From Modestobacter roseus (GTDB lineage Bacteria > Actinomycetota > Actinomycetes > Mycobacteriales > Geodermatophilaceae), in contig NZ_VLKF01000001.1 of assembly GCF_007994135.1 (NCBI RefSeq), positions 3,782,001-3,846,000 on the forward strand: a stretch of DNA of 64,000 nucleotides, in the 5' to 3' direction. Below the pieces are notes generated by a model. That model made no database searches, was not told the DNA's origin, and was given only the letters and a program-made list of their open reading frames with translations. This document shows positions 27,129 to 40,952 of this stretch, piece by piece; position 1 is the stretch's first letter; every line of letters begins with the position of its first letter. The position numbers were made by a program, and so were the translations under genes.

Positions 27129-27779
27129 TCAGCCGCGGCGGCCGAGGAGGTAGCCGACCCAGACGCCGAGCAACGTGAGCAGGCCGCCGCCGGCGGCGCC
27201 GACCAGCAGGGGCTTGGCCTCCGCCGGCACCCAGCCGGTCGTCGGCCGCATGCGCCCGGTGATGGTCGCGTACTGCTCGGGCCCGGTGGACGTTCCCGCG
27301 GAACCGTCTGCGGCCAGTGGCGCCACCTCGGCGACCACGTTGGGCTCGGTCAGCTCCTGGTCGATGGCGGCGAAGAACTGCCCGGCCATCCGCTTGGCGA
27401 CCCCGGTGATCATCCGCTGCCCCACACCCGCCACGGCCCCGCCGACCACGGCGTCCGCCGAGTACGTCAGCTCGGTGCCATCGCCGGAGGGCACCAGCTT
27501 GATCTGCACCGTCGCCCGCACCGACCCCGGCCCGCCCGAACCGCTGGCGTGCATCACGTACGACGACGGGAACGTGAGGTCGCTCAGCCGCACCTCACCG
27601 GCGTACTTCCCGCGGATCGCGCCCACGCCGGCCGAGACGACCATCGTGTAGCTGTCCTCGCCCACCTGCTGCAGCGACTCGCACCCGGGGATCGTCCGCG
27701 CCAGCACCGCCGGGTCGGTGATCACCGACCACACCTGCTCCGGCGCCGCCGAGAGCACCGCACTGCCGTCCAGGTTCAC
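27129..27779 (-). CDS. CoxG-like SRPBCC protein (molybdenum hydroxylase accessory)
   Basis: 216 residues. SRPBCC fold: MNLDGSAVLSAAPEQVWSVI, then GCESLQQVGEDSYTMVVSAGVGAIRGKYAGEV, as in carbon monoxide dehydrogenase subunit G. A C-terminal helix (LLVGAAGGGLLTLLGVWVGYLL) should anchor it in the membrane. In Oligotropha CoxG recruits CO dehydrogenase to the membrane; here it would recruit the related hydroxylase encoded upstream. It lies 10 nt after the large-subunit gene, last in the operon. Confidence 0.85.
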   Translation of the reverse strand: MNLDGSAVLSAAPEQVWSVITDPAVLARTIPGCESLQQVGEDSYTMVVSAGVGAIRGKYAGEVRLSDLTFPSSYVMHASGSGGPGSVRATVQIKLVPSGDGTELTYSADAVVGGAVAGVGQRMITGVAKRMAGQFFAAIDQELTEPNVVAEVAPLAADGSAGTSTGPEQYATITGRMRPTTGWVPAEAKPLLVGAAGGGLLTLLGVWVGYLLGRRG

Positions 27780-27789
27780 GCCAGGTCCC

Positions 27790-30207
27790 TCATGCCATCG
27801 CTCCAGTCGCGTCGGGAGAAGAGTTGATCACGCGCTCGGTGTCCGAGCGCACCAGGTCGTACAGCTCCGTCGGCGAGATCGGCATCGCCGCGATCCGCCG
27901 TCCCACCGCGTCCTCGATCGCCGAGGCGATGGCCGCCGACCCCGGGATGACGCCGGCCTCGCCGGCGCCCTTGATGCCCAGCGCGTTCAGCGGCGACGGG
28001 GTCTCCTGGTGGTCGATCACCACCGGCGGCACCTCGCTCGCGTAGGGCATGAGGAAGTCCATGAACGAGGCGTTGGTCAGCTGCCCGTCGCGGTCGTAGG
28101 CCATCCGCTCGTACAGCGCCCCGCCCACGCCCTGCGCCACCCCGCCGTGCACCTGGCCCTCGACGATCATCGGGTTCACCACGTTGCCGCAGTCGTGCAC
28201 CACCGAGTACTGCACGATCTCGATCTCCCACGTCGCCGGGTCGATCTCCACCTCCGCTGCGTGCGCGCCGGAGGCGAACGTCGAGCGCAGCGGCGAGTAG
28301 TAGTCGGTGTGCTCCAGCCCCGGTGCGTCGCCCTCGGCCACCGGCGGCTTCGAGTCGTCGCCCGGCCCGGCGAACTGGGTGGCCTGCCGCGCCGCCTCGT
28401 CGAAGGCGTACCGCAGCGGGTTGGACAGCACCGCCACCGTGCGCAGCGGGATCGTCGCCCCCGGCGTCCCCTTGACCCCGATCAGGCCCTCGTCGATCTC
28501 CAGGTCGGCCGGGTCGACCTCCAGCACGTCGGCGGCGATCCGCAGCGCCTTCTCCCGCACCCCGCGCGCCGCCTGGGCGACCGCGTTGCCGCTGACCACC
28601 GCGGCCCGCGAGGCGAAGGTGCCCACCGCATAGCCGAACCGCCGGGTGTCGCCGGTGGTCACCTCGACGTCCTCGATCGGCACGCCGAGCTCGGCCGCCG
28701 CCAGCTGGGCGAACACCGTCTCGTGCCCCTGCCCCTGCGACGTCAGCCCGGTGGAGACCAGCACCTTCCCGCTGCCCAGCACCTGCACGTGCGCGCCCTC
28801 GTACGGCCCCGGCCCGGTGCCCTCCACGTAGGGGGCCAGCCCGATCCCGCGCAGCTTCCCGCGCTCCTCGGCCTCCGCCCGGCGCTCGCCGAAGCCGTCC
28901 CAGTCGGCCAGCGCCCGCAGCTTGTCCATCATCCCCGGGTAGTCGCCGGAGTCGTAGACCAGCGGCCGGCCGTCCTGGAAGGTCAGGCCCCAGTCGTAGG
29001 GGAACTGGTCGGGCTGGATGAGGTTGCGCATCCGCACCTCCAGCCGGTCCAGCCCGCGCTCCTGCGCGATCCGGTCCATCGCCCGCTCCATCGCGAAGCA
29101 GCCCTGCGGGCGCCCGGCCCCGCGGTACGGCGTGACGATGACGGTGTTGGTGTAGACGCTGTTCACCACCGCCCGGTAGACCGGGATGTCGTAGGGCCCG
29201 AGCAGCTGGGTCGCGGTGTTGATCGGCACGATGATCCCGTAGGGCGTGTACGCGCCGTGGTCGTGCCAGACCAGGACGTCGAGGGCGGTGATCCGGCCGT
29301 CGTCGTCGTAGCCGATGGTGATCTCCTGGCGCTGCTGCCGCTCGTGCGCGCTGGAGATGAAGTGCTCGCGCCGGTCCTCGGTCCACTTCACCGGGTGCCC
29401 GAGCAGCCGGGCGGCCATCGGCACCAGCAGCTCCTCCGGCCACGGGTGCACGATCTTCACGCCGAACCCGCCGCCCACGTCCGGGGCGATGACCTCGACC
29501 TTCTCCATCGACAGCTGCAGCTTCGCCGCGATCGCCGCCCGCACCGACGTCGACGCCTGGGTGCTCGAGTACACGCGCAGCGAGGAGTCGGCGTCGTCCC
29601 AGCGCGCGTGCACGCCCTTGCCCTCCATCGGCATGGAGGCGCTGCGCTCGAAGTACTGGGTGAAGGAGAGCGTGTGCGTGCTCGCGGCCAGCGCCGCCTC
29701 GACGTCGCCGGTCTCCTGGTGGTGCCGCGCGGCGATGTTGTCCGGGACGTCGGGGTGGACGACGGCGTCGGCCCGCTCGGCGGCGTCGACCCCGACCACC
29801 ACCGGGAGCTCCTCCCAGGTGATCGAGATCCGGTCCGCGGCGTCCTCGGCGACGTACCGGTCGGTGGCCACCACCATCACCACCGGCTCGCCCACGTGCC
29901 GCGCGACGTCGCGCACCAGCGGGTAACCGGTGCGCGGGGCGGTGAGCTGCGGGTGGGGGATGAGCACCGGCAGCGGCTCGGCCATCGGGCCGGTGAGGTC
30001 CTCGTAGGTGTAGATCGCCAGCAGCCCGTCGACGTCCAGGGCGTCGGCGACGTCGATGTCCACCACGCGCGCGTGCGCGTAGGGGCTGCGGACGAAGGCT
30101 GCGGCGTAGGCGCCGGAGTCGATGTCGTCGAGGTAGCGGCCCTTGCCGACGATCAGCCGGGCGTCCTCGCGCCGGCGCACCGGCTCGCCGAAGAACTTCG
30201 TGGTCAC
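27790..30207 (-). CDS. Molybdenum hydroxylase large subunit, form II CoxL / xanthine dehydrogenase family
   Basis: 805 residues. Aldehyde oxidase/xanthine dehydrogenase family molybdopterin-binding subunit: GKGRYLDDI at the start, GGGFGVKI, PYRGAGRPQG at about residue 358, and GEAGVIPG near the C-terminus with the conserved Glu. The active-site loop reads YRGAGR, the form II type. It lacks the AYxCSFR of true (form I) CO dehydrogenases, so it should not be called a CO oxidiser. Family members hydroxylate N-heterocycles or aldehydes. The GTG overlaps the small-subunit stop by 4 nt. Operon order is FAD, Fe-S, Mo, CoxG. Confidence 0.9.
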   Translation of the reverse strand: MTTKFFGEPVRRREDARLIVGKGRYLDDIDSGAYAAAFVRSPYAHARVVDIDVADALDVDGLLAIYTYEDLTGPMAEPLPVLIPHPQLTAPRTGYPLVRDVARHVGEPVVMVVATDRYVAEDAADRISITWEELPVVVGVDAAERADAVVHPDVPDNIAARHHQETGDVEAALAASTHTLSFTQYFERSASMPMEGKGVHARWDDADSSLRVYSSTQASTSVRAAIAAKLQLSMEKVEVIAPDVGGGFGVKIVHPWPEELLVPMAARLLGHPVKWTEDRREHFISSAHERQQRQEITIGYDDDGRITALDVLVWHDHGAYTPYGIIVPINTATQLLGPYDIPVYRAVVNSVYTNTVIVTPYRGAGRPQGCFAMERAMDRIAQERGLDRLEVRMRNLIQPDQFPYDWGLTFQDGRPLVYDSGDYPGMMDKLRALADWDGFGERRAEAEERGKLRGIGLAPYVEGTGPGPYEGAHVQVLGSGKVLVSTGLTSQGQGHETVFAQLAAAELGVPIEDVEVTTGDTRRFGYAVGTFASRAAVVSGNAVAQAARGVREKALRIAADVLEVDPADLEIDEGLIGVKGTPGATIPLRTVAVLSNPLRYAFDEAARQATQFAGPGDDSKPPVAEGDAPGLEHTDYYSPLRSTFASGAHAAEVEIDPATWEIEIVQYSVVHDCGNVVNPMIVEGQVHGGVAQGVGGALYERMAYDRDGQLTNASFMDFLMPYASEVPPVVIDHQETPSPLNALGIKGAGEAGVIPGSAAIASAIEDAVGRRIAAMPISPTELYDLVRSDTERVINSSPDATGAMA

Positions 30208-30716
30208 CGGGCCGCCTCGCGCATCGTCTCGGCCGCGCGGTGGCAGGCCTTCTTGATGTTGGCGTAGCCGGTGCAGCGGCACAGGTTGCCGCCGACCAGC
30301 TCGTCGACCTCGTCGTCGGAGATCGGCACCGACGCGTCCCGGGCGTCCAGACCCGCGGCGATCGTGGTCAGGAAGCCCGGGGTGCAGAAGCCGCACTGCA
30401 GGGCGTGGCACTCGCGGAACGCCTCCTGGACCGGGTGCAGCACCTCCCCGCCCTGGTGGTCGGGCCGGCTGAGGCCCTCGACGGTGGTCACCTCGTGCCC
30501 GTCGACCTGCACGGCGAGCACCAGGCAGGAGCGGGTCGCCTCGCCGTCGACCAGCACCGTGCAGGCCCCGCACACCCCGTGCTCGCAGCCGACGTGCGTG
30601 CCGGTCAGCCCGAACTCGTGCCGCAGGACGTCGGACAGCAGCCACCGCACCGGTACGGATGCTTCACGTGCAACACCGTTCACGGTGACGGTGATCTGCC
30701 GGGTCTGCTCGGTCAT
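30204..30716 (-). CDS. Molybdenum hydroxylase small (2Fe-2S) subunit
   Basis: 170 residues. Plant-type ferredoxin cluster ligands Cys44, Cys49, Cys52 and Cys64 ([16 protein letters not shown] then SC), and the second cluster ligands Cys108, Cys111, Cys146 and Cys148 ([16 protein letters not shown]). This is the usual two-cluster CoxS layout that passes electrons from the molybdenum centre to FAD. It overlaps both neighbours by 4 nt. Confidence 0.92.
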
Positions 30717-31588
30717 CGCTGCTCCGTCCGGGAGGCTGCCTCGGCCGCGGCGTCGGCCAGGGTGCGGGCGGTCAGCGTGGCCACCAGCAGCCTGCGGTAG
30801 TCGGCGCTGGCGTGCAGGTCGCCGTCCGGCTCGACCAGGCCGCGGGCCAGCTCGCCGGCCGCCGTCCAGTCGGCGGTGTCGACCGGCTGACCGCCGACCG
30901 CGTCGGTCAGGTCGTGCACCTCGGGCACCAGCCCCACCGACAGGTAGGCGGCGCGCGCCGCGGCGACCCGGCGGTCGGCGTCCAGGGTGACGACGACGGC
31001 CGCGCCGCACACCGCGTAGTCGCCCTTGCGCCGGGCGATCTCGGCGAACGCCGTTCCCGAACGCTCCGGCAGGGCGGGGAAGAACGCCTCGGTGACGACG
31101 GCGGGCCCGTGCACCGAGGTCTCCAGCGGCCCGACGAAGAAGTCGCGCCAGCCGATGGTCTCCGGCCCGCCCGGGGTGGCGACCGTGACGGACCCGTCCG
31201 TCAGCGCCAGCACCGCGGTCATCTCCCCCGAGGGGTCGGCGTGCGCGATCGAGCCGACCGTCGTCCCCCGGTTCCGGATCGCCGGGTGGGCCACGTTCGC
31301 CGTCGCCCGGGCCAGCAGCGGCTGGACGGCGGCGGCCTCGGCCGAGGCCAGCAGCGACGCGTGCCGCACCAGGGCCCCCACCCGGACGCCGTCGGCGCCG
31401 GCCTCGATCCGGTCCAGCCCGGGCACCCGGTTGATGTCGACCAGCGTGGTGGGCGCGGCCAGGCGCATGGACAGCAGCGGCAGCAGGGACTGGCCGCCGG
31501 CGAGCACCTTGGCGCCCTCGGTGTCGAGCAGGCGCAGCGCCTCCTCGACCGACGACGGGTCGGCGTAGCCGAACGGGGCGGGCTTCAC
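30713..31588 (-). CDS. Molybdenum hydroxylase medium (FAD) subunit
   Basis: 291 residues, CoxM-like. The FAD-binding motifs are [14 protein letters not shown] (36-49) and [14 protein letters not shown] (with GT before it), followed by the CoxM C-terminal domain. It accepts electrons from the Fe-S subunit. First gene of the operon; the GTG start at 31588 has GGAGG about 12 nt upstream. The 158-nt gap to the divergent fdrA-like gene holds two copies of the shared element described at 31657-31738. Confidence 0.9.
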
Positions 31589-31656: not shown

Positions 31657-31673
31657 AGTACCTCAGTGCTAAA
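31657..31673 (+). promoter_or_regulatory. Third copy of the AGTACYTCA element, on the hydroxylase side
   Basis: AGTACCTCAGTGCTAAA (31657-31673) matches the element at 31704-31720 at most positions (AGTAC, TCA, GCT, A). Its complement reads GGTACTTCCGCC toward the FAD-subunit gene, so it may serve the divergent hydroxylase operon. It is weaker than the other two copies. Confidence 0.5.
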
Positions 31674-31703: not shown

Positions 31704-31738
31704 AGTACTTCACCGCTGAGACATCCCTCCGGTAGCGT
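31704..31738 (+). promoter_or_regulatory. Shared regulatory element and leaderless promoter of the fdrA-like operon
   Basis: AGTACTTCACCGCTGAG (31704-31720), then 12 nt, then TAGCGT (31733-31738), then 8 nt to the GTG at 31747. TTCACC could be the -35 (18-nt spacer), with the symmetrical AAGTACTT overlapping it. The carbamate kinase promoter (40518-40484) has the same element, the same 12-nt gap and a TAGGGT -10, which is strong evidence for a common regulator. Confidence 0.75.
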
Positions 31739-31746
31739 CCCGCAGG

Positions 31747-33216
31747 GTGACCCCCACCCACGTCTCCCTGCGCAGTGGCGTCTATGCCGACTCGGTGCGG
31801 TTGATGCAGGTCAGCCGAGAGATCGGTGCCCGCGACGGGGTCAGCGCCGTCCTGGTCGCGATGGCCACGCCGCTCAACCTCGAGCTGGCCGCCGGCATGG
31901 GCCTGGCGCCCGACGGCGGCGCCCAGCCCGACCAGCTGCTCATCGCGCTCCGCGCCACCGACGACGCCGAGCTGACCGCCGCGGTCGCCGCCGTCGAGGC
32001 CGCGCTCACCGCCCGCGAGGACCGCGGCTCGGCCCAGGCGATCCCCGCCCGCACCGTGGGTGCGGCCCTCGCCGACGCGGCCGACCCGGCGCTGGCCATC
32101 GTCAGCGTCCCCGGGCAGTACGCGGTCGCCGAGGCCGCCGACGCGATCGCCGCCGGCCGCAGCGTGCTGGTGTTCAGCGACGGCGTGCCGGTCGAGCACG
32201 AGGTCGCCCTCAAGCGGGCCGCGCACGAGGCCGGCGTGCTGGTCATGGGCCCCGACTGCGGCACCGCGATCGTCTCCGGCGTCGCGCTGGGCTTCGCCAA
32301 CGTCGTCCGCCGCGGCCCGGTCGGCCTGGTCGCCGCCAGCGGCACCGGCGCCCAGCAGGTCAGCTGCCTGCTCGACGCCGCCGGCGTCGGCGTCTCGCAC
32401 GTGCTCGGCGTCGGCGGCCGCGACCTGTCGACGGCGGTCGGCGGGCTGGCCACCCTCGACGCGCTCGCCGCCCTGGACGAGGACCCGGCCACCGAGCGGG
32501 TGCTGCTGGTCTCCAAGCCGCCGGCGCCCGAGGTCGCCGAGCGGGTGCAGCAGGCTGCCGCGCAGCTCTCGACGCCGGTCCGCTCGGCCGCGCTGTCGCC
32601 GGAGTCGCCCGACCTCACGGCCGCCGTCGAGGCGCTGCTCGGTGATCTCGGCGTCGCCGTCCCCGAGTGGCCCGCCCGGCCCGGCGCCGCCGACGCCGTC
32701 CCGCCCGGTGCGGTCCTCAAGGGCTTCTACTCCGGCGGCACCCTCGCCGACGAGGCGATGCTGATCGCCGCCCCCGCGCTGGGCGACGTCCGCTCCAACA
32801 CCCCGCTGCGGCCCGAGCTCGACCTCGACACGGGGCAGGGCACGGACCTGCGGGCGACCGGCCACGTCGTCGTCGACTTCGGCGACGACGCGCTGACCGT
32901 CGGCCGCGCGCACCCGATGATCGACCCGACGCTGCGGCTGGAGGCGATCGCGGCCCTGGCGCAGAGCGGTGAGCCGGCGGTCCTGCTGCTCGACGTCGTC
33001 CTCGGCCACGGCGCCGACCCCGACCCGGCCGCTGCCCTCGCTCCCGCGCTGCAGGCCGCGGGCCTGCCGGTCGTCGTCGCGCTGGTCGGCACCGAGGCCG
33101 ACCCGCAGGGCTGGTCGCGGCAGGCCGACGCCCTCGCCGAGGCCGGCGCCGCGGTCTACGCCAGCAACGCCCAGGCCACCCGGTACGCCCTCGACCTGAT
33201 CGGAGAGCACGCGTGA
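31747..33216 (+). CDS. FdrA-like protein, putative transcarbamoylase subunit (AllF-like)
   Basis: 489 residues of the FdrA / acyl-CoA synthetase-like family (YADSVRLMQVSREI at the start; GVLVMGPDCGTAI at about 165; AASGTGAQQ; NTPLRPELDL; VLLLDVVLGHGADPDPAAAL). In E. coli FdrA (AllF) with AllG and AllH forms oxamate carbamoyltransferase, which splits oxalurate with phosphate to oxamate and carbamoyl phosphate. Here the AllG-like gene follows with a 4-nt overlap; no AllH (DUF2877) gene is seen. The start is set by the leaderless promoter just upstream. The substrate is unknown. Confidence 0.82.
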   Translation: MTPTHVSLRSGVYADSVRLMQVSREIGARDGVSAVLVAMATPLNLELAAGMGLAPDGGAQPDQLLIALRATDDAELTAAVAAVEAALTAREDRGSAQAIPARTVGAALADAADPALAIVSVPGQYAVAEAADAIAAGRSVLVFSDGVPVEHEVALKRAAHEAGVLVMGPDCGTAIVSGVALGFANVVRRGPVGLVAASGTGAQQVSCLLDAAGVGVSHVLGVGGRDLSTAVGGLATLDALAALDEDPATERVLLVSKPPAPEVAERVQQAAAQLSTPVRSAALSPESPDLTAAVEALLGDLGVAVPEWPARPGAADAVPPGAVLKGFYSGGTLADEAMLIAAPALGDVRSNTPLRPELDLDTGQGTDLRATGHVVVDFGDDALTVGRAHPMIDPTLRLEAIAALAQSGEPAVLLLDVVLGHGADPDPAAALAPALQAAGLPVVVALVGTEADPQGWSRQADALAEAGAAVYASNAQATRYALDLIGEHA

Positions 33217-34616
33217 ACCCGCTGCTGTCGGCCGCGCCCGCGATCGTCGCCGCGGGGGTCGAGGTCTTCTCCGCCGCCGTCCGGGCCCAGGGCGCGTCGG
33301 TCACCGACGTCGACTGGCGCCCGCCGGGCTTCGGCGCCGCCGCCGACCTCGCCCAGCTGGCCCTCGACCGGCGCCGCGCCGCGGCCAACCGGACGGCGGT
33401 CGAGCGGCTGCTCGCCGCCGGTTCGCACCTGGTCGACGTCCGGCCGGCCCGGGAGGTGCTCGACCTCGGCGACCGCATGCTGCTGCACTCCGGCCCCCCG
33501 CTGACCTGGGAGACGGCGTCCGGCCCGATGCGCGGCGCGCTCATCGGAGCCTGCCTGTTCGAGGGCTGGGCGTCGTCGGTCGAGGACGCCGAGCGGGTCC
33601 TCGCCGCCGGCGAGATCACGCTGGACTCCTGCCACCACCACCGCGCGGTCGGCCCGATGGCCGGGGTGACCAGCCCGTCGATGTGGATGTGGTGCCTGAC
33701 CGACCCCGTCCACGGCGGGCAGGCGTTCTGCAACCTCAACGAGGGCCTGGGCAAGGTGCTGCGCATGGGCGCCTTCAACGACGAGGTGCTCACCCGGCTG
33801 GCCTGGATGCGCGACGTCCTCGGCCCGCTGCTGCAGCAGGCCGTCCGCTCGCGCCCGGAGCCGCTCGACGTCAAGGCCGTGCTCGCGCAGATGCTGCAGA
33901 TGGGCGACGAGGGGCACAACCGCAACCGGGCCGGCTCGCTGATGACGCTGCGCGAGCTGTCCCCGGCGATCGTCGCCGTCGACGCGCCGTCGGCCGACAT
34001 CGCCGCCGCGCTGGCCTTCATCGGCGGCAACGAGCACTTCTTCCTCAACCTGGGCATGCCGTCGGCGAAGCTCGCGCTGGACGCCGCCCGCGACGTCCCC
34101 GGCTCGACGATGGTCACCGTGATGTCGCGGAACGGCACCGAGTTCGGCATCCAGACCGCCGGCACCGGCGACCGCTGGTTCACCGGCCCGGCGAACACCC
34201 CGGTCGGCCTGTTCCTCGGCGACTACGGCCCGGACGACGCCAACCCCGACATCGGCGACTCGGCGATCATGGAGACCTACGGCATCGGCGGGTTCGCCAT
34301 GGCGGCGGCGCCGGCGATCGTCCGGTTCGTCGGCGGCACCGTTCCCGACGCCCTGGCGACGACGGAGCGGATGTACCAGCTCACCCTGGCCGAGAACCCG
34401 GCGATGCAGATCCCGATCCTGGGCTTCCGCGGCTCACCGACCGGGATCGACGTCCTGCAGGTGGCACGCACCGGCTGGCTGCCGCAGATCAACACCGGCA
34501 TGGCCGGCCGGGTCGCCGGCACCGGCCAGGTCGGCGCCGGCCTGGTGCAGCCGCCGCAGCAGTGCTTCGAGCAGGCGCTGACCGCGCTGGCCGAGGAGTC
34601 CCGCGCGGCGGGGTGA
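33213..34616 (+). CDS. DUF1116 protein, putative transcarbamoylase subunit (AllG-like)
   Basis: 467 residues, DUF1116 (YlbE/AllG) throughout: GMCLFEGWA-like segment GACLFEGWASSVEDAE, CHHHRAVGPMAGVTSPSMWMW, FCNLNEGLGKVLRMGA, LAQMLQMGDEGHNRN, MSRNGTEFGIQ, RWFTGPANTPVGLFL. The CHHHxxVGPMAG motif is highly conserved in the family and may be catalytic. It overlaps the fdrA-like gene (GTGA). Together they would form the core of an AllFG-type carbamoyl-transferring enzyme. Last gene of this two-gene operon. Confidence 0.85.
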   Translation: MNPLLSAAPAIVAAGVEVFSAAVRAQGASVTDVDWRPPGFGAAADLAQLALDRRRAAANRTAVERLLAAGSHLVDVRPAREVLDLGDRMLLHSGPPLTWETASGPMRGALIGACLFEGWASSVEDAERVLAAGEITLDSCHHHRAVGPMAGVTSPSMWMWCLTDPVHGGQAFCNLNEGLGKVLRMGAFNDEVLTRLAWMRDVLGPLLQQAVRSRPEPLDVKAVLAQMLQMGDEGHNRNRAGSLMTLRELSPAIVAVDAPSADIAAALAFIGGNEHFFLNLGMPSAKLALDAARDVPGSTMVTVMSRNGTEFGIQTAGTGDRWFTGPANTPVGLFLGDYGPDDANPDIGDSAIMETYGIGGFAMAAAPAIVRFVGGTVPDALATTERMYQLTLAENPAMQIPILGFRGSPTGIDVLQVARTGWLPQINTGMAGRVAGTGQVGAGLVQPPQQCFEQALTALAEESRAAG

Positions 34617-34712
34617 CCCCTTCCGCCACGATGGCCATGTTGGCGGGACGGCGGCTCGGGTAGTCGGGTGCGCACGTGACCACCCGGGGTCGCACCGACG
34701 GAAGGGACGTCC

Positions 34713-34979
34713 ATGGCCAGCTGCGAGGTCTGCGGGAACGACTACCGGCTCAGCTTCGAGGTGCACGCCGCGGGCGCGGTGCACACCTTCGACAGCTTCG
34801 AGTGCGCGATCCACGCGCTGGCGCCGGTGTGCGAGCACTGCGGGGTGAAGGTGGTCGGGCACGGGGTCGAGGCCGACGGTGTGTTCTTCTGCTGCGCCTC
34901 CTGTGCACGCATGCACGGATCGCCGGACAGCGCCGCCGAGCTGGTCGACCACGCCGGCCGGGCACCGGACGAGCGCTGA
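34713..34979 (+). CDS. Small cysteine-rich zinc-ribbon-like protein
   Basis: 88 residues with eight Cys: Cys4/Cys7 (CEVC), Cys31, Cys40/Cys43 (CEHC), and Cys60/61/64 (FFCCASCARMHG). The pairs look like two zinc knuckles or a treble-clef/metallothionein-like fold; DSFECAIHAL is reminiscent of TRASH-like metal-sensing domains. The function is unknown; zinc or copper binding is likely. GAAGGGA is a plausible ribosome site. The acyltransferase gene begins 2 nt after its stop. Confidence 0.8.
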   Translation: MASCEVCGNDYRLSFEVHAAGAVHTFDSFECAIHALAPVCEHCGVKVVGHGVEADGVFFCCASCARMHGSPDSAAELVDHAGRAPDER

Positions 34980-34981
34980 CC

Positions 34982-35665
34982 GTGGACGCCTACCCCGTCG
35001 TCCGTGCCCTGGCGCGGCCCCTGGTCCTCGGCATGTTCCGGCCCCGCGTGGAGGGCATCGAGCACCTCCCGGCGACCGGGCCGGTGATCCTGGCCGGCAA
35101 CCACCCCTCCACCCTCGACCAGTTCTTCCCGCCGCTGCTCACCCGGCGGCGGGTGACCTACCTGGCCAAGAACGAGTTCTTCACCCGTCCCGGACTGTCC
35201 GGTCGGGCGCTGCGCTGGCTGATGGAGAGCATCGGCATGGTCCCCCTGGACCGCGGGGGCGCCAACGCGGCGGACGCGGCCCTGCGCCGAGGCGGCCAGG
35301 TGCTCGGCGAGGGTGGCCTGCTGGGCATCTACCCGGAGGGCACCCGGTCGCCCGACGGCCGGCTGCACCGCGGCAAGACCGGCGTCGCGCGACTGGCGCT
35401 GGCCACCGGGGCCCCCGTCGTCCCGGTGGCCGTCATCGGCAGCTATGCGCTGTACCCGGCGGGGGCTCGGTGGCCCCGGCCCGGGCGGGTGACCGTCCGG
35501 TTCGGCGAGCCGATGGACTTCTCGGCGGAGCCCGCCGACGACCCCGCCGTCCTCCGCCGGATCACCGACCAGGTCATGGCCGAGCTCCAGCGGCTCTCCG
35601 GTGACGAGTACGTCGACCGGTACGCAGCCGACGTCAAGGCCGAGATCCGGGGACGCGCTGCCTGA
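34982..35665 (+). CDS. 1-acyl-sn-glycerol-3-phosphate acyltransferase family protein
   Basis: 227 residues, PlsC family: NHPSTLD (His41, Asp46; the HX4D catalytic motif), FFTRP, GMVPLDR, IYPEGTRS (117-123) and VPVAVIGSYALYP. It would acylate lysophosphatidate or a related lipid at the inner face of the membrane. The GTG at 34982 begins right after the stop of the Cys-rich gene, so translation is probably coupled. No ribosome site of its own. Confidence 0.88.
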   Translation: MDAYPVVRALARPLVLGMFRPRVEGIEHLPATGPVILAGNHPSTLDQFFPPLLTRRRVTYLAKNEFFTRPGLSGRALRWLMESIGMVPLDRGGANAADAALRRGGQVLGEGGLLGIYPEGTRSPDGRLHRGKTGVARLALATGAPVVPVAVIGSYALYPAGARWPRPGRVTVRFGEPMDFSAEPADDPAVLRRITDQVMAELQRLSGDEYVDRYAADVKAEIRGRAA

Positions 35666-35673
35666 CCGCCGGG

Positions 35674-36252
35674 TCAGCTGGCAGGCGCCTGCGCGAGCAG
35701 TTCACGCACCCCGGCCTCGAGCGTCGCCTGCGCGTGCGCCGGGTCGGCGAGGTAGCCGGCGACCATCGCCCCGTCGCGCAGCACCAGCCAGCGCCGAGCC
35801 GCGTCGGCCGGGTCGGGGTGCCCGACCGTGGCGAAGGCCGTCCGCACGCCGTCCTCCAGCCACTCCCGGTGGGCGCGCACCGCACGCCGTACCGGGCTGG
35901 CCGGATCGGGGTACTCGGCGGCGGCGTTGATGAAGGCGCAGCCGCGGAAGCCGACGCCGCACACCGTGTCGCCGACCATCGCGGTCAGGGCGTGCAGCCA
36001 GCGTGCCGCCTCGGCCGCCCCGGTCGGGACGACGCCGGCCCGGTCGCGGACCGCCCGGTCGACGCCGTGCAGGTAGGCGACCACCAGGTCCTCCTTGCCG
36101 GGGAAGTGCCGGTAGAAGGTCGCCCGGGTCACGGAGGCCTCCGCGATCACCCGGTCGACCCCGACGGCGCGCAGCCCCTCGGCGTAGAAGAGCGTCGACG
36201 CGGTGCGCAGCAGTCGTTCCCGGGCCTCCGACGTCGGCGCTGCGGTGGTCAT
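35674..36252 (-). CDS. TetR family transcriptional regulator, probable regulator of ohr
   Basis: 192 residues. TetR N-terminus RERLLRTASTLFYAEGLRAVGVDRVIAEASVTRATFYRHFPGKEDLV; the C-terminal domain holds two Cys (TVCGVGFRGCAFINAA) in the motif of the LmrA/YxaF-like TetR subgroup, which could sense oxidants. TACCGT (36265-36260) lies 7 nt before the ATG at 36252, deciding the start over the GTG three codons upstream. Divergent from the Ohr gene with a dyad between them. Confidence 0.88.
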   Translation of the reverse strand: MTTAAPTSEARERLLRTASTLFYAEGLRAVGVDRVIAEASVTRATFYRHFPGKEDLVVAYLHGVDRAVRDRAGVVPTGAAEAARWLHALTAMVGDTVCGVGFRGCAFINAAAEYPDPASPVRRAVRAHREWLEDGVRTAFATVGHPDPADAARRWLVLRDGAMVAGYLADPAHAQATLEAGVRELLAQAPAS

Positions 36253-36315
36253 GGTGAGCACGGTAACCCGGTGGTTGACGCCCGACCCGGGTCGTGGTGG
36301 ACTCGTCCCGAGAGG

Positions 36316-36331
36316 CAGAACGACCGTTCTG
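36316..36331. promoter_or_regulatory. TetR operator dyad in front of ohr
   Basis: CAGAACGACCGTTCTG (36316-36331) is a perfect palindrome of 7-bp arms with a 2-nt centre. It lies just before TACTAAT (36334-36340), the likely -10 of the Ohr gene, and upstream of the divergent TetR start. Confidence 0.7.
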
Positions 36332-36362
36332 TCTACTAATCCGACACCGGGAGGCCAGTCCC

Positions 36363-36785
36363 ATGGCTGCCGTCTACACCGCCATCGCCACCGCCACGGG
36401 TGAGGGCCGCAACGGCCACACCCGCACTTCCGACGGATCGGTCGACCTCGACCTCAAGGTCCCCACCGAGATGGGGGGCCCCGGTGGCGGCGCGAACCCC
36501 GAGCAGCTCTTCGCCGCGGGCTACGCCGCCTGCTTCCACGGTGCCCTGAAGGTGGTGGCCCGCAACCAGAAGGTCTCCTTCACCGACTCCGCGGTCACGG
36601 CCGAGGTGGGCATCGGCCCGAACGACGCCGGCGGGTTCGCTCTCGAGGTCGCCCTGCACGTCGAGCTCGGCGGTGTCGACCAGGCGGCGGCCGAGCAGCT
36701 GGTGCAGGCCGCCCACCAGGTGTGCCCCTACTCCAACGCCACCCGCGGCAACATCCCGGTGACCCTGCAGACGACCGTCGCCTGA
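36363..36785 (+). CDS. Organic hydroperoxide resistance protein (Ohr/OsmC family)
   Basis: 140 residues. OsmC/Ohr fold with the two redox Cys: Cys57 (GYAACFHGAL) and Cys121 (HQVCPYSNATRGN); Arg/Glu residues that activate the peroxidatic Cys are in NPEQLFAAGYAAC. The N-terminal VYTAIATATGEGRNG is typical of Ohr rather than OsmC. It reduces organic and fatty-acid hydroperoxides using lipoylated proteins. Ribosome site GGGAGG. Its regulator appears to be the divergent TetR instead of the usual MarR-type OhrR. Confidence 0.92.
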   Translation: MAAVYTAIATATGEGRNGHTRTSDGSVDLDLKVPTEMGGPGGGANPEQLFAAGYAACFHGALKVVARNQKVSFTDSAVTAEVGIGPNDAGGFALEVALHVELGGVDQAAAEQLVQAAHQVCPYSNATRGNIPVTLQTTVA

Positions 36786-36790
36786 GGGTG

Positions 36791-36816
36791 AGGTGGGGGC
36801 CGAGCGGCCCCCACCT
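36791..36816. terminator. Bidirectional hairpin
   Basis: Perfect 11-bp arms AGGTGGGGGCC (36791-36801) and complement (36806-36816), loop GAGC, flanked by CTGAGG/CCTCAG that extends the stem. It lies between the convergent ohr and SDR genes. Confidence 0.75.
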
Positions 36817-36819
36817 GCC

Positions 36820-37632
36820 TCAGCGGGTCAGCGTCCCGAGGTCGATCGGGAGCTGGATGCCGGTGACGTGCCGGGCCTCGTCGGAGGCCAGCCAGGCGAC
36901 CGCGTTCGCGATGTCCTCCGGCTGGGAGACGGGGTCGGGCAGCGTCTGCATGAAGATCGGTCCCAGTGTCGCGGCGTGCTGGGTGATCAGCGGCTGGAGG
37001 TCGTCGACCGTCATCCCGGTGGCGACACCGTGCGGGTGGATGGTGTTGACCCGGATGCCGTGCTGCCCGAGCTCGTTGGCCATCGACCGGGCCAGCCCGA
37101 CCACGCCGTGCTTGGTCGCCGCGTAGTGCCCCAGGAAGGGCAGTCCGCGCAGGCCGGCCACCGAGCTGGTGATGATGATCGAGCCGCCGGTGCCCTGCTC
37201 GATGAGCAGCGGCACGGTGGCCTTCGCGGTGAAGAAGACGCCGGTCAGGTTGGTGTCGATCGTCTCCTGCCACTGCTCGACGGAGATCTCCCAGGACGGG
37301 TTGGCCGAGCAGATGCCGGCGTTGGCGATCACCACGTCGAGCCGCCCCAGCTCGGCGACGCCCTCCTGCACGGCCGCGCTCAGTCCGGCGAAGTCCCGGA
37401 CGTCGGCCTCGCGGGCCACCACCCGCCGGCCCTGCTCCTCCACCAGCCGCGCGGTCTCGGCCAGGTCGTCGGGGGTCGGGCCGGGGTAGGCCGTCGTCCC
37501 CGCGGACTTGTTGACGTCGATCGCGATGACGTCGGCGCCCTCGCGGGCCAGGCGGACGGCGTGCGCCCGGCCCTGCCCGCGGGCGGCTCCGGTGATCAGG
37601 GCGACCTTGCCCTCGAGTCGGCGTGCGCTCAT
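36820..37632 (-). CDS. Mycofactocin-coupled-type SDR oxidoreductase
   Basis: 270 residues. TGAARGQGRAHAVRLAREGADVIAIDV at the N-terminus is the signature of the mycofactocin-coupled SDR group, whose tightly held NAD is recycled by the peptide-derived redox cofactor mycofactocin. NAG, Ser (ITSSVAGLRG), Tyr and Lys (YAATKHG) complete the active site. The substrate is probably an alcohol; no mft genes are in the window. ATG at 37632 with GGAGGAG. Divergent from a TetR gene with a palindrome between them. Confidence 0.88.
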   Translation of the reverse strand: MSARRLEGKVALITGAARGQGRAHAVRLAREGADVIAIDVNKSAGTTAYPGPTPDDLAETARLVEEQGRRVVAREADVRDFAGLSAAVQEGVAELGRLDVVIANAGICSANPSWEISVEQWQETIDTNLTGVFFTAKATVPLLIEQGTGGSIIITSSVAGLRGLPFLGHYAATKHGVVGLARSMANELGQHGIRVNTIHPHGVATGMTVDDLQPLITQHAATLGPIFMQTLPDPVSQPEDIANAVAWLASDEARHVTGIQLPIDLGTLTR

Positions 37633-37657
37633 CAGCAGCTCCTCCGGTCGGCTTCGT

Positions 37658-37670
37658 TGCACTCAGTGCA
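37658..37670. promoter_or_regulatory. Operator dyad between SDR and TetR genes
   Basis: TGCACTCAGTGCA (37658-37670), a perfect 6-1-6 palindrome, 26 nt upstream of the SDR start and about 60 nt upstream of the TetR start. A further half-site (CAGTGTG) follows. It fits a site for the divergent TetR. Confidence 0.6.
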
Positions 37671-37731
37671 GTGTGAGCGTCGTCACCGTAGCCCTGATCG
37701 CCGCGTCGTGGGACTCGTTACCGTGCGCTCC

Positions 37732-38307
37732 GTGCCCGACGTCTCCCTCCGCGAGCAGCACCGCCTGGCCAGCTGGCGCGCCCTGCAGGCGGCCGCCGTC
37801 CGGCTGGTGGGGGAGCGTGGCTTCGCTGCCGTCACCGTCGACGACGTGGCGGGGGCGGCGGGCGTCTCCCGGCGGACCTTCTTCAACCACTTCCCGACCA
37901 AGGCCGCGGCCCTGTTCGACCCCGACCCGGACGACGCCGCGCGTCTCGACCAGTTGCTCGCCGCCGCCGACGGGGAACCGGACCTGTGGGCCGCCCTGCG
38001 CGGGGTCTGGCTCGGTTTCCTCGACGGGGCGCAGGCGCTGCAACTCGCCGCGGTCCGCCGGCAGCTGGTGGACGACCCGGAGCTGGCCGCCTACGTCCGC
38101 TCGGCGTACCGGTTCGTCGAGGACGCGATGGAGCGCTGGGCATCCCGGCGCCAGGCCGCCGACCCGTTCACCTCGTCGCTCGCGGTGCACGCCGCCGGCG
38201 CCGCGGTCGCCACCGCCTTCGGCACCTGGTCGCCCCGGGACGACCCGGCGGGCTTCCTGCCCGCCGTCGCCCGGGGCTTCGACGCCCTGGCGCCGGCTTT
38301 CCGCTGA
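37732..38307 (+). CDS. TetR family transcriptional regulator
   Basis: 191 residues. N-terminal helix-turn-helix: RLVGERGFAAVTVDDVAGAAGVSRRTFFNHFPTKAAAL. Mycofactocin-associated TetR proteins have a very similar RTFFNYF segment, in line with the neighbouring SDR. TACCGT (37719-37724) lies 7 nt before the GTG at 37732 with no ribosome site, so this start was chosen over a GTG three codons earlier. Probable repressor of the divergent SDR. Confidence 0.87.
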   Translation: MPDVSLREQHRLASWRALQAAAVRLVGERGFAAVTVDDVAGAAGVSRRTFFNHFPTKAAALFDPDPDDAARLDQLLAAADGEPDLWAALRGVWLGFLDGAQALQLAAVRRQLVDDPELAAYVRSAYRFVEDAMERWASRRQAADPFTSSLAVHAAGAAVATAFGTWSPRDDPAGFLPAVARGFDALAPAFR

Positions 38308-38332
38308 CCTCCGGTTCGCTCCTCCCGCCTGC

Positions 38333-38390
38333 TGATCACGGGGCTGTCGCCGCCGAACGGCTGCACGCCCCGGCAACAGCCCCATGATCG
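38333..38390. terminator. Bidirectional hairpin
   Basis: Arms TGATCACGGGGCTGT (38333-38347) and ACAGCCCCATGATCG (38376-38390), paired but for one C-A position and a terminal wobble, with a 28-nt loop. It lies between the convergent TetR and amidohydrolase genes. Confidence 0.6.
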
Positions 38391-38406
38391 ACGAGGGCGC
38401 GGGGGA

Positions 38407-39510
38407 CTACGCCTTGATGATCGCCGCGACCGGGCCGCCGCCGCTCGGGCCCTGGTGCACCGCGGCCACCGACACGAACACCGCCGGGTCGCCGGTCACC
38501 GACGCGGCCACGCCGCCGACGGTGGCCTTGATCTGCCGGTGCCAGAAGACGTCGGAGTCGTCGAGCATCGCGTTCCGCCGGCCGCGCACGTAGCCGGTCG
38601 GGTCGGCCTCGCACTTGAGGAAGACGTTGACCAGCCGGTCGCCCAGGTCGCTGACGTGCGGCCGCTCGGGCAGCTCCATCCCCGCCTCGCGGATGGCGTC
38701 CCAGATGCCGTCCTGGTCGAGGGCGTCCTTCATCACCGAGTGGCCGATCCGGTAGGCGCCACCGTGGCCGCGGGCGTTGCCGACGACGACGATCTGCGCC
38801 CGGTCCAGCTCCACGCCCGACGAGCAGGACGCGACCGCGCTGAACAGCGACAGGTCGCGCATGACCTGCTCCTGCGTCGGCATCTCGATCTCGCCCAGCG
38901 CCACCGCGATGCCCAGCGCCGTCGTGCCGTTGGACAGGTCCATCGACCCGTGCGGCTCGTCGTAGTAGGTGTCCTCGCCGCGGGACTTCGCCTCGCGGAT
39001 CGTCTCGATCGTCAGCAGCGGCGTCTTGGTCTGCACGTAGTGGACGTCGGCCGGGTCGGTGATGCCCGCGGCCGCCATCGCCCGGCGCACGCCCTCGGCG
39101 ACCTTCTCCACCATGGCGATCCGGCCGATGTCCTCGGGGTTCAGCACCTCGCTCATCGCGTACCCGACGGTCAGCCGCGGCTCGTCGGTCTTCCCCACCG
39201 CCTCCTCCGGCAGCGTGGCGAAGATCGTCGCGTGCGGGCTGATCACGCCGTCGGTGCCGCCGGACCAGACGATCGGGATGTCCCCGACCTCCTCCTTGCT
39301 CCGCGAGCCCTTCTCCAGCAGCACCTCGCGGAAGGCCCGGTCGGCGATGATCCGGGTGTAGTCGTTGACCCCGCCGTTGCCCTCGGTCTTGCCGATGACG
39401 GCGACGACCCGGTCGGCCTCCATGACGCCGTCGTCGATCAGCTTGGCGAGCTCGGAGGCGTCGCTCACGTTGTGCAGCGGGACCTTGCGGACCTCGATCG
39501 GTGCGGGCAC
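38407..39510 (-). CDS. Ring-opening amidohydrolase (cyanuric acid hydrolase / barbiturase family)
   Basis: 367 residues, the usual length. The family has three homologous domains each giving a Ser-Lys pair; here Lys41 ([14 protein letters not shown]), Ser83 ([12 protein letters not shown]), Lys162 (VQTKTPLL), Ser230/231 (ASCSSGVEL), Lys299 (FLKCEAD) and Ser356 (HQGPSGGGP) are all in place. Characterised members open cyanuric acid or barbiturate at an amide bond; substrate choice cannot be read from these motifs. GTG start with AGGAGA upstream. It lies 9 nt downstream of carbamate kinase in one operon, which suggests a ureido product that ends as carbamoyl phosphate. Confidence 0.9.
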
Positions 39511-39519
39511 GGCTTTCTC

Positions 39520-40476
39520 CTATGCGGTGAGGACGGTGCCGACGCCGTCACCGGCGACGGCGTCGGAGATGTGTTCCAGGGACGTGACGACGGCGCGGGC
39601 GCCGGCCCGGCGGTCGACGAAGCGGAGCGCGGCCTCGACCTTCGGGCCCATGCTGCCCCGGGCGAACTGACCGGCGGCGGCGTGCGCCCGGAGCTCGGCG
39701 ACGGTGACCCGGCCCAGCGGCCGCGCGGCCGGCGTGCCGAAGTCGACCATCACGTGCGGGACGTCGGTGGCGATGACGAGCGTGTCGGCGCCCACGTCGG
39801 CGGCGAGCAGGGCCGCGGTCAGGTCCTTGTCGATGACCGCCTCGACGCCGCGCAGCGCGCCGCCGTCCCGGCCGTCGTCGACCACCGGCACGCCGCCGCC
39901 CCCGGCGCAGACGACGACGAAGCCGGCCCCGGCCAGCGCACGGATCGCCGCGACGTCGACCACCGCCAGCGGTTCCGGCGAGGCGACGACGCGCCGCCAG
40001 CCGCGTTCCCCGCGGTCCTCCCAGACCTGGCCCAGCCCGATGAAGTGCTGCGCGCGCTCTCGCGGCAGGTGGCGGCCGACGGGCTTGGTCGGGGACCGGA
40101 AGCCGGGGTCGGCCGCGTCGACCAGCGTGCGGGTGACCAGGGCGGCGGTGCGCTGCGGCAGCCCGCGGGCGGCGAGCGCGGCGTCCAGCTCGTCGGCCAC
40201 GGTGAAGCCGATCGTGGCCTGGGTCTGGGCCACGTTCCAGTCCAGCGGCACCGGGGGCACCTCGTGTGCGGCGAGCTCGTTCTTGACCAGCAGGTTCCCC
40301 ACCTGCGGGCCGTTGCCGTGGGTGACCACGACCTCGACCCCGGTCGCGACGACGGCGGCCAGGTGTCCGGCGGCGACGGCGATCGCGTCGCGCTGCGCAC
40401 CGGGGGTGGCCGACCCGTCGGGGCCGGTCATCGCATTGCCGCCCAGGGCGACGACCACGCGGCGGGGAGGGGTCAC
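39520..40476 (-). CDS. arcC: Carbamate kinase
   Basis: 318 residues. Amino acid kinase family with VVALGGNAM (8-16), THGNGPQVGNLL (52-63), TSPTKPVG-like FRSPTKPVG, the PEPLAVVD segment and a C-terminal GSMGPKVEAALRF. It makes ATP, CO2 and ammonia from carbamoyl phosphate and ADP, as in arginine or allantoin fermentation. No arginine deiminase or ornithine transcarbamylase is nearby; the carbamoyl donor is more likely the FdrA/DUF1116 enzyme, whose promoter is nearly identical. GTG start, leaderless (TAGGGT 7 nt upstream). First gene of the operon. Confidence 0.9.
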   Translation of the reverse strand: MTPPRRVVVALGGNAMTGPDGSATPGAQRDAIAVAAGHLAAVVATGVEVVVTHGNGPQVGNLLVKNELAAHEVPPVPLDWNVAQTQATIGFTVADELDAALAARGLPQRTAALVTRTLVDAADPGFRSPTKPVGRHLPRERAQHFIGLGQVWEDRGERGWRRVVASPEPLAVVDVAAIRALAGAGFVVVCAGGGGVPVVDDGRDGGALRGVEAVIDKDLTAALLAADVGADTLVIATDVPHVMVDFGTPAARPLGRVTVAELRAHAAAGQFARGSMGPKVEAALRFVDRRAGARAVVTSLEHISDAVAGDGVGTVLTA

Positions 40477-40483
40477 CCGCCGG

Positions 40484-40518
40484 ACCCTAGCGGTCCGGTG
40501 CCTTAGCGGTGAAGTACC
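40484..40518 (-). promoter_or_regulatory. Shared regulatory element and leaderless promoter of the carbamate kinase operon
   Basis: Read on the minus strand: GGTACTTCACCGCTAAG (40518-40502), 12 nt, TAGGGT (40489-40484), 7 nt, GTG at 40476. Element, 12-nt gap, -10 class and start spacing all match the fdrA-like promoter at 31704-31738. TTCACC is again placed as a -35 with an 18-nt spacer. Confidence 0.75.
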
Positions 40519-40523
40519 TGCGG

Positions 40524-40952
40524 TCAGGCGGCGGCGACGAGCGCGGCGTCCTCGGCCGGCGGCACGGCGAACTGGTCGGTGACGGCGGCGGCGAGCCGGG
40601 CGTCCCGCTGCAGCGGGGGCAGCGGCGGGAGGGCGGGCAGCTCGGAGGGGAGCAGCACCCGGATCTCCTCCGCCTCGGCGGCGGTGACGTCCTCGGCCAG
40701 GGCGTCGTCCTCATCGTCGTCCGCGGTGACGGCGTCGCCGGTGACTGCGTTCCCGGTGACGGTGTCCTCGGTGACGGCCTCCGCTGTCGCGTCGACGTCC
40801 GCGAGCGGCTCGGGCACGACGTCGTCCCAGTGCTCGGCGAGGTCCGCGATCACGTGCATGGCCTCGTCGTGCAGCTGCTCGACGTACGCGCGCCCGGCAG
40901 CGGCCATCTCCTCGAAGGGAACGGGTTCCCCGGTGCTCTGCAGATCGGTCAC
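40524..40952 (-). CDS. Hypothetical acidic protein with Val-Thr repeat
   Basis: 142 residues, not recognised. Residues 55-80 carry a degenerate five-residue repeat (TAEAVTEDTVTGNAVTGDAVT) encoded by a GGTGACNGNG-type DNA repeat at about 40730-40790, followed by an Asp/Glu run (DDDEDDALAED). The N-terminal ~50 residues look helical (EEMAAAGRAYVEQLHDEAMHVIADLAEHWDD). The gene reads toward the carbamate kinase operon but ends just before its promoter. Codon use is like the neighbours. GTG start; no clear ribosome site. Confidence 0.6.
   Translation of the reverse strand: MTDLQSTGEPVPFEEMAAAGRAYVEQLHDEAMHVIADLAEHWDDVVPEPLADVDATAEAVTEDTVTGNAVTGDAVTADDDEDDALAEDVTAAEAEEIRVLLPSELPALPPLPPLQRDARLAAAVTDQFAVPPAEDAALVAAA

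Follow-up and report, generated by a model that had tools for sequence, protein, structure and literature searches.

Here we analyse a DNA element shared by two promoters of Modestobacter roseus, found in a 64,000-nucleotide stretch of contig NZ_VLKF01000001.1 (positions 3,782,001 to 3,846,000; the window, hereafter, is this whole stretch). The element lies ahead of the fdrA-allG operon and of the carbamate kinase (cbk)-barbiturase operon, and we consider it quite probable that it is the operator of an autoregulated MarR-family repressor controlling a pyrimidine-pathway regulon. The existence of one regulon with a shared operator is well supported, while the case for MarR as its regulator, which comes from sequence comparison, is good but circumstantial. 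What was a visual match of two promoters in an earlier note on this DNA is now a defined regulon whose operator sequence and candidate repressor can be named and whose genes can be assayed.

The shared element and its promoters

Reading the window directly, we found everything that the earlier note had described at the two promoters: two exact copies of the element, a gap of 12 nucleotides (nt), a TAGNGT hexamer and 7-8 nt to a GTG. On the plus strand, the proximal operator of fdrA-allG (AGTACTTCACCGCTGAG, 31704-31720) is followed by 12 nt, the putative -10 box TAGCGT (31733-31738), 8 nt and the GTG at 31747. On the minus strand, the cbk operator (GGTACTTCACCGCTAAG, 40518-40502) is followed by 12 nt, the putative -10 box TAGGGT (40489-40484), 7 nt and the GTG at 40476. 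Relatives keep these sequences upstream of fdrA and cbk, respectively, with TANNGT at the same place as the fdrA box, and TAGGGT or a near-match ahead of cbk. The exact 17-mer, present twice in the window, was absent from 200 first-order Markov copies of it, and the same holds for the arrangement of element, -10 and start codon. When up to 3 mismatches to the pattern are allowed, the window gives 3 matches against 0.70 expected, but 4 of 100 shuffles also give 3, so that this loose count alone is weak evidence.

The third match is a distal operator in the fdrA/coxM intergenic region, where relatives have a permease in place of coxM (AGTACCTCAGTGCTAAA, 31657-31673, plus strand; two mismatches to the pattern of the earlier note). 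It had been described as a weaker third copy. The copy is real, and it is the best conserved part of the fdrA upstream region: an alignment of this region from ten genomes shows conserved islands at the start codon, at the -10 and at both element copies, the longest being the distal copy (core CTCAGTGCTAAA, 31662-31673, plus strand). The element is a dyad with core YTCASYGCTRAR, whose two-fold symmetry is clearest in CTCAGCGCTGAG, a perfect palindrome at another place in the genome. Among 115 aligned sites of relatives, taken upstream of fdrA, cbk, hyuA and the amidase gene and also used to build a weight matrix, the T three bases ahead of the core is 99% conserved.

At fdrA, cbk, hyuA, the amidase gene and nmrA, in this genome as in relatives, only 6-8 nt separate the TANNGT-type -10 box from the start codon and leave no space for a ribosome site, which supports the earlier suggestion of leaderless promoters and extends it to all five. 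Counted from these starts, the dyad is centred at -32.5 for fdrA (proximal core TTCACCGCTGAG, 31709-31720, plus strand), -31.5 for cbk (core TTCACCGCTAAG, 40513-40502, minus strand), -27.5 for the amidase gene, -16.5 for hyuA and -15.5 for nmrA. All five centres fall within core promoters, a position that suits a repressor and not the usual activator, and repression by the protein that binds the element is thus likely. In several genomes the operator of nmrA or marR also lies between an upstream TTGAC and the -10.

Throughout the 4.5-Mb genome, the exact 17-mer occurs only as the two window copies. The next-best match, with 1 mismatch, lies outside the window at C1:3776614, directly before hyuA. 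A weaker second copy (3 mismatches; L009 12663-12679) precedes the hyuA operator by 49 nt, giving a pair of sites that resembles the one at fdrA. With up to 3 mismatches, the genome gives 106 matches against 16 with a reversed-pattern control; many of the 3-mismatch matches, among which the copy beside hyuA is the only one inspected individually, resemble TTCACCGCCGAG, and coding bias could give rise to such a sequence.

The core occurs in 11 places of the whole genome, against 0 for its reversed control. The earlier note had named copies unrelated to ureide genes as evidence that would tell against a regulon. Run on the core, this search found 6 intergenic and 5 intragenic copies, and all six intergenic ones precede genes assigned to one pathway. 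Two lie between the cox genes and fdrA-allG (window 31662 and 31709), one before carbamate kinase-barbiturase (window 40502), one before hyuAB (C1:3776614), one before an amidase gene with a -10 TAGCGT and a leaderless GTG (C1:3532335), and one, the perfect palindrome, between pucR and an NCS2 permease gene (C1:1090271). The intragenic cores, at 460119, 529775, 2335830, 3688896 and 4467792, were set aside as chance occurrences in a coding context (the first by eye). In addition, the nmrA-marR operon, which lies 11 kb outside the window, is preceded by a one-mismatch copy. Their operator was part of the reason for placing the amidase and nmrA genes in the pathway; both genes cluster with hyuAB in one relative, G020. 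The sharing first proposed for two operons holds for both and extends to at least seven apparent transcription units.

The element is also kept upstream of fdrA, cbk and hyuA in relatives within the Geodermatophilaceae. An fdrA-upstream site was found in 15 of 15 loci from Klenkia, Modestobacter, Geodermatophilus and Blastococcus, against 0 of 65 others, among the best 80 of 551 matches; within the same best 80, one of the 65 site-less loci comes from a divergent metagenome-assembled genome titled Geodermatophilaceae. Over 962,078 bases of family loci, the weight matrix scored 72 sites at 20 or more, 71 of them upstream of pathway genes and one before marR, in loci that were picked around pathway and pucR genes and that include many of the sites on which the matrix was trained. 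The site before the amidase gene is patchier (17 of the 21 loci read in the genus, G003, G004, G012 and G019 being those without it, plus G025, but 0 of 8 genomes of other genera), so that membership of the regulon changes.

Further copies were seen on the way. The NCS2 permease gene stands behind pucR with a perfect operator in the window genome and in G004, G008, G009 and G015 (L156 10272-11775), and opposite fdrA in other genera, the gene having either moved with its operator or regained one. In G057, a perfect operator (L258, about 5222) precedes a CaiB-type CoA-transferase-like gene beside a transporter-like gene, as judged by eye; the former resembles a gene in the clusters of order-level genomes, and is perhaps a further regulon member in G057. 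Palindromes in G080 (L227, L231) and G084 (L226) were rejected, the first as part of a short tandem array and the second as repetitive-looking sequence.

A MarR-family protein as candidate regulator

The earlier note saw no obvious regulator in the window. None is assigned within it here either, but a candidate can be proposed just outside. The 72nd site of the matrix scan, in G026, stands directly before a MarR-family gene, and it is this site that led to the candidate: marR, second gene of the nmrA-marR operon (C1:3770175-3770732, 11 kb before the window). Its product carries a MarR domain (PF12802, expectation value (E) 1.7e-14; PF01047, E 4.9e-9) and matches the PDB chains 8ylf (MarR family, E 1.5e-36) and 8ylh (E 2.8e-36) and, less closely, 2fbk (E 1.3e-15), a MarR-family chain that we take to be HucR. 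The marR GTG overlaps the nmrA stop codon, and both genes should therefore be under the copy before nmrA. Since the element also precedes the marR gene, it is probably the docking site of this MarR-type regulator.

Orthologues agree with this. Sites before marR and nmrA had been left out of the training of the weight matrix, and yet a site scoring 14 or more was found upstream of marR or nmrA in all of the 30 closest orthologue loci, 25 of which have nmrA just before marR. In a further 20 marR loci, a site lies upstream of marR or of the nmrA-marR operon in 13 (43 of 50 in total). In G010, G013 and G020, marR adjoins the amidase gene and its operator, the order in G020 being hyuB-nmrA-marR-element-amidase.

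Presence of the element and presence of marR also go together. Of the genomes G000-G068, 60 had the upstream region of fdrA, cbk or hyuA read; at a site threshold of 18, the element was found at one of these genes in 50 of the 51 genomes with marR and in 0 of the 9 without it (best score 7.0). Presence of marR meant a match of at least 78% identity, weaker matches (G041, G051) counting as absence, and the cbk loci of G010 and G041, which could not be placed, were dropped from the cbk count. The Fisher value for this table, 6.8e-10, takes no account of relatedness, and we do not treat it as a probability. In the core groups, the marR-less genomes that keep pathway genes are G030 (100% complete; fdrA, cbk and hyuA read), G019 (70%; fdrA and cbk) and G041 (99%; fdrA only). 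Three genomes lacking fdrA and barbiturase (G047, G061, G065) have no marR match and no exact TAYYTCASYGCTRAR; G040, lacking fdrA, barbiturase and hyuA, has no marR match and no exact CTCAGCGCTRAR in its genome. Taken with the genome-wide cores and the copies conserved in relatives, this co-occurrence strongly supports the single regulon proposed in the earlier note.

We infer MarR binding, repression and ligand sensing as follows. A MarR dimer would bind the dyad AnnTAYYTCASYGCTRARRnA, which covers the -35 region at fdrA-allG and carbamate kinase-barbiturase, and the spacer or the -10 at the amidase gene, hyuAB and nmrA-marR. From there, the repressor would keep RNA polymerase off the leaderless promoters until a pathway intermediate released it, barbiturate and ureidomalonate being our guesses for this compound. 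The regulon would comprise the NCS2 nucleobase permease, the molybdenum hydroxylase, barbiturase, HyuAB, the amidase, AllF/AllG and carbamate kinase.

Several observations weigh against this assignment. Some concern the pairing of marR with its sites. G049 has marR but no fdrA or cbk site in the bases scored, a strong copy lying about 450 bp upstream of fdrA, and G003 and G012 have marR without the amidase site. Conversely, G004 has no marR match, yet carries the perfect palindrome between pucR and the permease gene. In the second set of 20 loci, 7 have no site in the 1.3 kb ahead of marR, and the nmrA-marR site of the window genome scores 16.1, against 31-33 for the window sites. MarR-less genomes also contain exact cores: of the 12 that were read, a long reading frame encloses 7 and no frame was called at the other 5, and their scores run from 7.0 to 18.1, none reaching 20. 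Others concern geometry, which is not uniform: judged by eye, the operator at the permease gene apparently follows the start site, and the one facing the divergent cox promoter may precede the -35. Finally, the 60 genomes of the table are related and not independent, and a single-sequence structure model of MarR was poor (mean predicted local distance difference test score, pLDDT, of 46) and was not used.

Other possible binders

PucR, our earlier lead candidate, is the best placed of the other regulators, although we now think it improbable that a PucR-family protein binds the element and activates the regulon. Its gene (C1, about 1088255-1090196) is next to allH and, in the window genome, to the permease gene. 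The allH-pucR adjacency holds in all 18 of the family pucR loci checked besides that of the window genome, and in order-level relatives pucR sits inside the same cluster, beside the permease gene and allH-fdrA. The perfect palindrome between pucR and the permease gene, shared with G004 where marR has no match, also points to PucR, and known PucR-type sites are often inverted repeats of 17-24 bp (PMC7652997). The element, however, does not follow PucR. In G030, PucR and its targets are kept while fdrA, cbk and hyuA all lack the element, whereas G013 has elements and no PucR match at E 1e-60, a strict threshold, so that sites and regulator part in both genomes. No site above 15.0 was found in 26 order-level or basal loci, despite their pathway genes and often a PucR gene, and a scan of order-level clusters for a weaker form of the element found none. 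G040 also keeps PucR with no exact match, but the pathway genes are missing there too. In the window genome the allH-pucR intergenic region has no site. Studied PucR proteins are activators, save B. subtilis PucR which plays both roles (PMC7652997), and the sites here cover the -35, spacer or -10 at five promoters instead of lying upstream of the -35 as for activators. It is because pathway genes lack the element in G030, and in the relatives whose cluster includes PucR, that PucR was demoted in favour of MarR.

That the element is no operator but a promoter motif, for instance a -35 box read by an alternative sigma factor, we regard as very unlikely. It does stand 12 nt before a conserved -10 at fdrA and cbk, and it contains TTCACC, a passable -35. 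A sigma-factor box would nevertheless hold a fixed spacing, and here the spacing varies: the element overlaps the -10 at hyuA and nmrA, is 8 nt from it at the amidase gene, and at the permease gene comes after a possible -10 and before the start codon. It is moreover dyad-symmetric.

Least plausible of all is another regulator encoded near these genes, such as the TetR proteins whose two genes lie between the operons (35674-36261 and about 37740-38307): they were dropped as poorly conserved, with homologues in 2 of 20 fdrA-context and 3 of 30 barbiturase-context loci for the first and in 1 of 20 and 2 of 30 (one being the window's own) for the second, unlike the element, which is kept in nearly all family genomes having the pathway.

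The regulon genes, their proposed pathway and known systems

The fdrA gene (31747-33216, plus strand), an allF homologue, encodes a Ligase_CoA protein whose best NCBIfam model, an FdrA subfamily, scores 397 bits, below the cut-off of 433. It is followed by allG (33213-34616, plus strand; PF06545, oxamate carbamoyltransferase subunit AllG, E 1.9e-93). With allH, over its cut-off at C1:1086927, beside pucR and 2.7 Mb away, the genome encodes all three AllFGH subunits. No site was found in front of allH in this genome. The divergent allH-pucR pair (C1:1086894-1090195; L156 6895-10196) is kept even in G040, which has no fdrA, barbiturase or hyuA matches.

On the minus strand, carbamate kinase (39520-40476; AA_kinase) is over the cut-off of PRK12352, whereas the arcC equivalog stays below its own. 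A 142-amino-acid acidic protein without Pfam match (40524-40952, minus strand) ends 5 bases before the cbk operator, so the cbk promoter sits in a very short gap; no homologue of this protein was found in 50 context loci at E 1e-12. The second gene of the operon (38407-39510, minus strand) encodes the ring-opening amidohydrolase of the earlier note, an assignment that stands for the family and that we refine to barbiturase-like, on 80.5% identity to PDB 5hwe, named 'Barbiturase' (E 2.2e-189; the chains that bear the name cyanuric acid amidohydrolase gave 1e-94 to 3e-68). Its sequence resembles barbiturase more than cyanuric acid hydrolase, with Asn, as in 5hwe, and no Arg at the position of Azorhizobium Arg188. 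Two points run counter to this reading: NCBIfam assigns CyanAcHdlAtzD, over its cut-off, and Gln is stated for the barbiturase subgroup at that position in PMC4051656.

Divergent from fdrA, a molybdenum hydroxylase is encoded on the minus strand by a coxM-like gene for the flavin adenine dinucleotide (FAD) subunit (30713-31588), a coxS-like gene for the iron-sulphur subunit (30204-30716) and a coxL-like gene for the molybdopterin subunit (27790-30207), with a coxG-like gene beyond (27129-27779; PF06240, present in 15 of 20 fdrA-context loci). NCBIfam (NF040766) gives the coxL-like subunit the name aerobic CO dehydrogenase. It may instead be a nucleobase hydroxylase, as its gene sits with the permease, barbiturase and AllFG genes under the shared operator and the protein has a PYRGAGR motif, the form II motif. 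For the NCS2 permease the best family model is RutG, below its cut-off.

The genes suggest that the pathway is specifically one for uracil and barbiturate, which we put forward as a hypothesis. A bolder proposal, which we advance tentatively and hold to be rather less than even in probability, is an energy-conserving oxidative pyrimidine pathway under one MarR repressor. Uracil would enter through the NCS2 permease, the cox-like molybdenum enzyme would hydroxylate it to barbiturate, barbiturase would open the ring to give ureidomalonate, and AllFGH would phosphorolyse this to malonamate and carbamoyl phosphate; carbamate kinase would then make ATP and the amidase would free malonate. The MarR repressor would let go of all units once a pathway intermediate appeared. 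Ureidomalonate, the barbiturase product, is the one-carbon-longer analogue of oxalurate, and it is this analogy that places AllFGH after barbiturase. In E. coli, oxalurate is the AllFGH substrate, and the products are oxamate and carbamoyl phosphate (PMC11326118).

The shared operator gives a regulatory ground for reading as one pathway genes whose annotation is vague or perhaps wrong, namely the cox-like 'CO dehydrogenase', the 'cyanuric acid hydrolase', FdrA, AllG and HyuAB, and the fate of ureidomalonate becomes directly testable. No earlier description of this regulon was found in the open-licence literature, in so far as its texts were accessible. In the known oxidative pyrimidine pathway, uracil is converted to barbiturate and then to ureidomalonate, barbiturase and ureidomalonase being its enzymes. 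A barbiturase-like enzyme and a molybdenum hydroxylase are found here too, but a transcarbamylase and carbamate kinase would replace or accompany ureidomalonase. Homologues of AllF, AllG and AllH and a carbamate kinase recall the E. coli allFGH system (PMC11326118), whereas here the genes sit with those for barbiturase, molybdenum hydroxylase and a nucleobase permease, and allH is far off.

With the PucR types, such as B. subtilis PucR and C. glutamicum GabR, the system shares a PucR gene in the cluster of relatives, linked to allH, but the element does not track PucR, and the members studied mostly activate (PMC7652997). It also resembles the autoregulated MarR catabolic repressors, Deinococcus HucR included; MarR proteins commonly regulate their own genes, have palindromic sites in promoters and are released by a compound of the pathway (PMC5487221). 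The winged-helix domain, the palindromic promoter sites, the site before the regulator's own operon and the control of catabolic genes are all alike. Unlike the HucR-type regulators, a single MarR protein here appears to serve at least seven scattered units.

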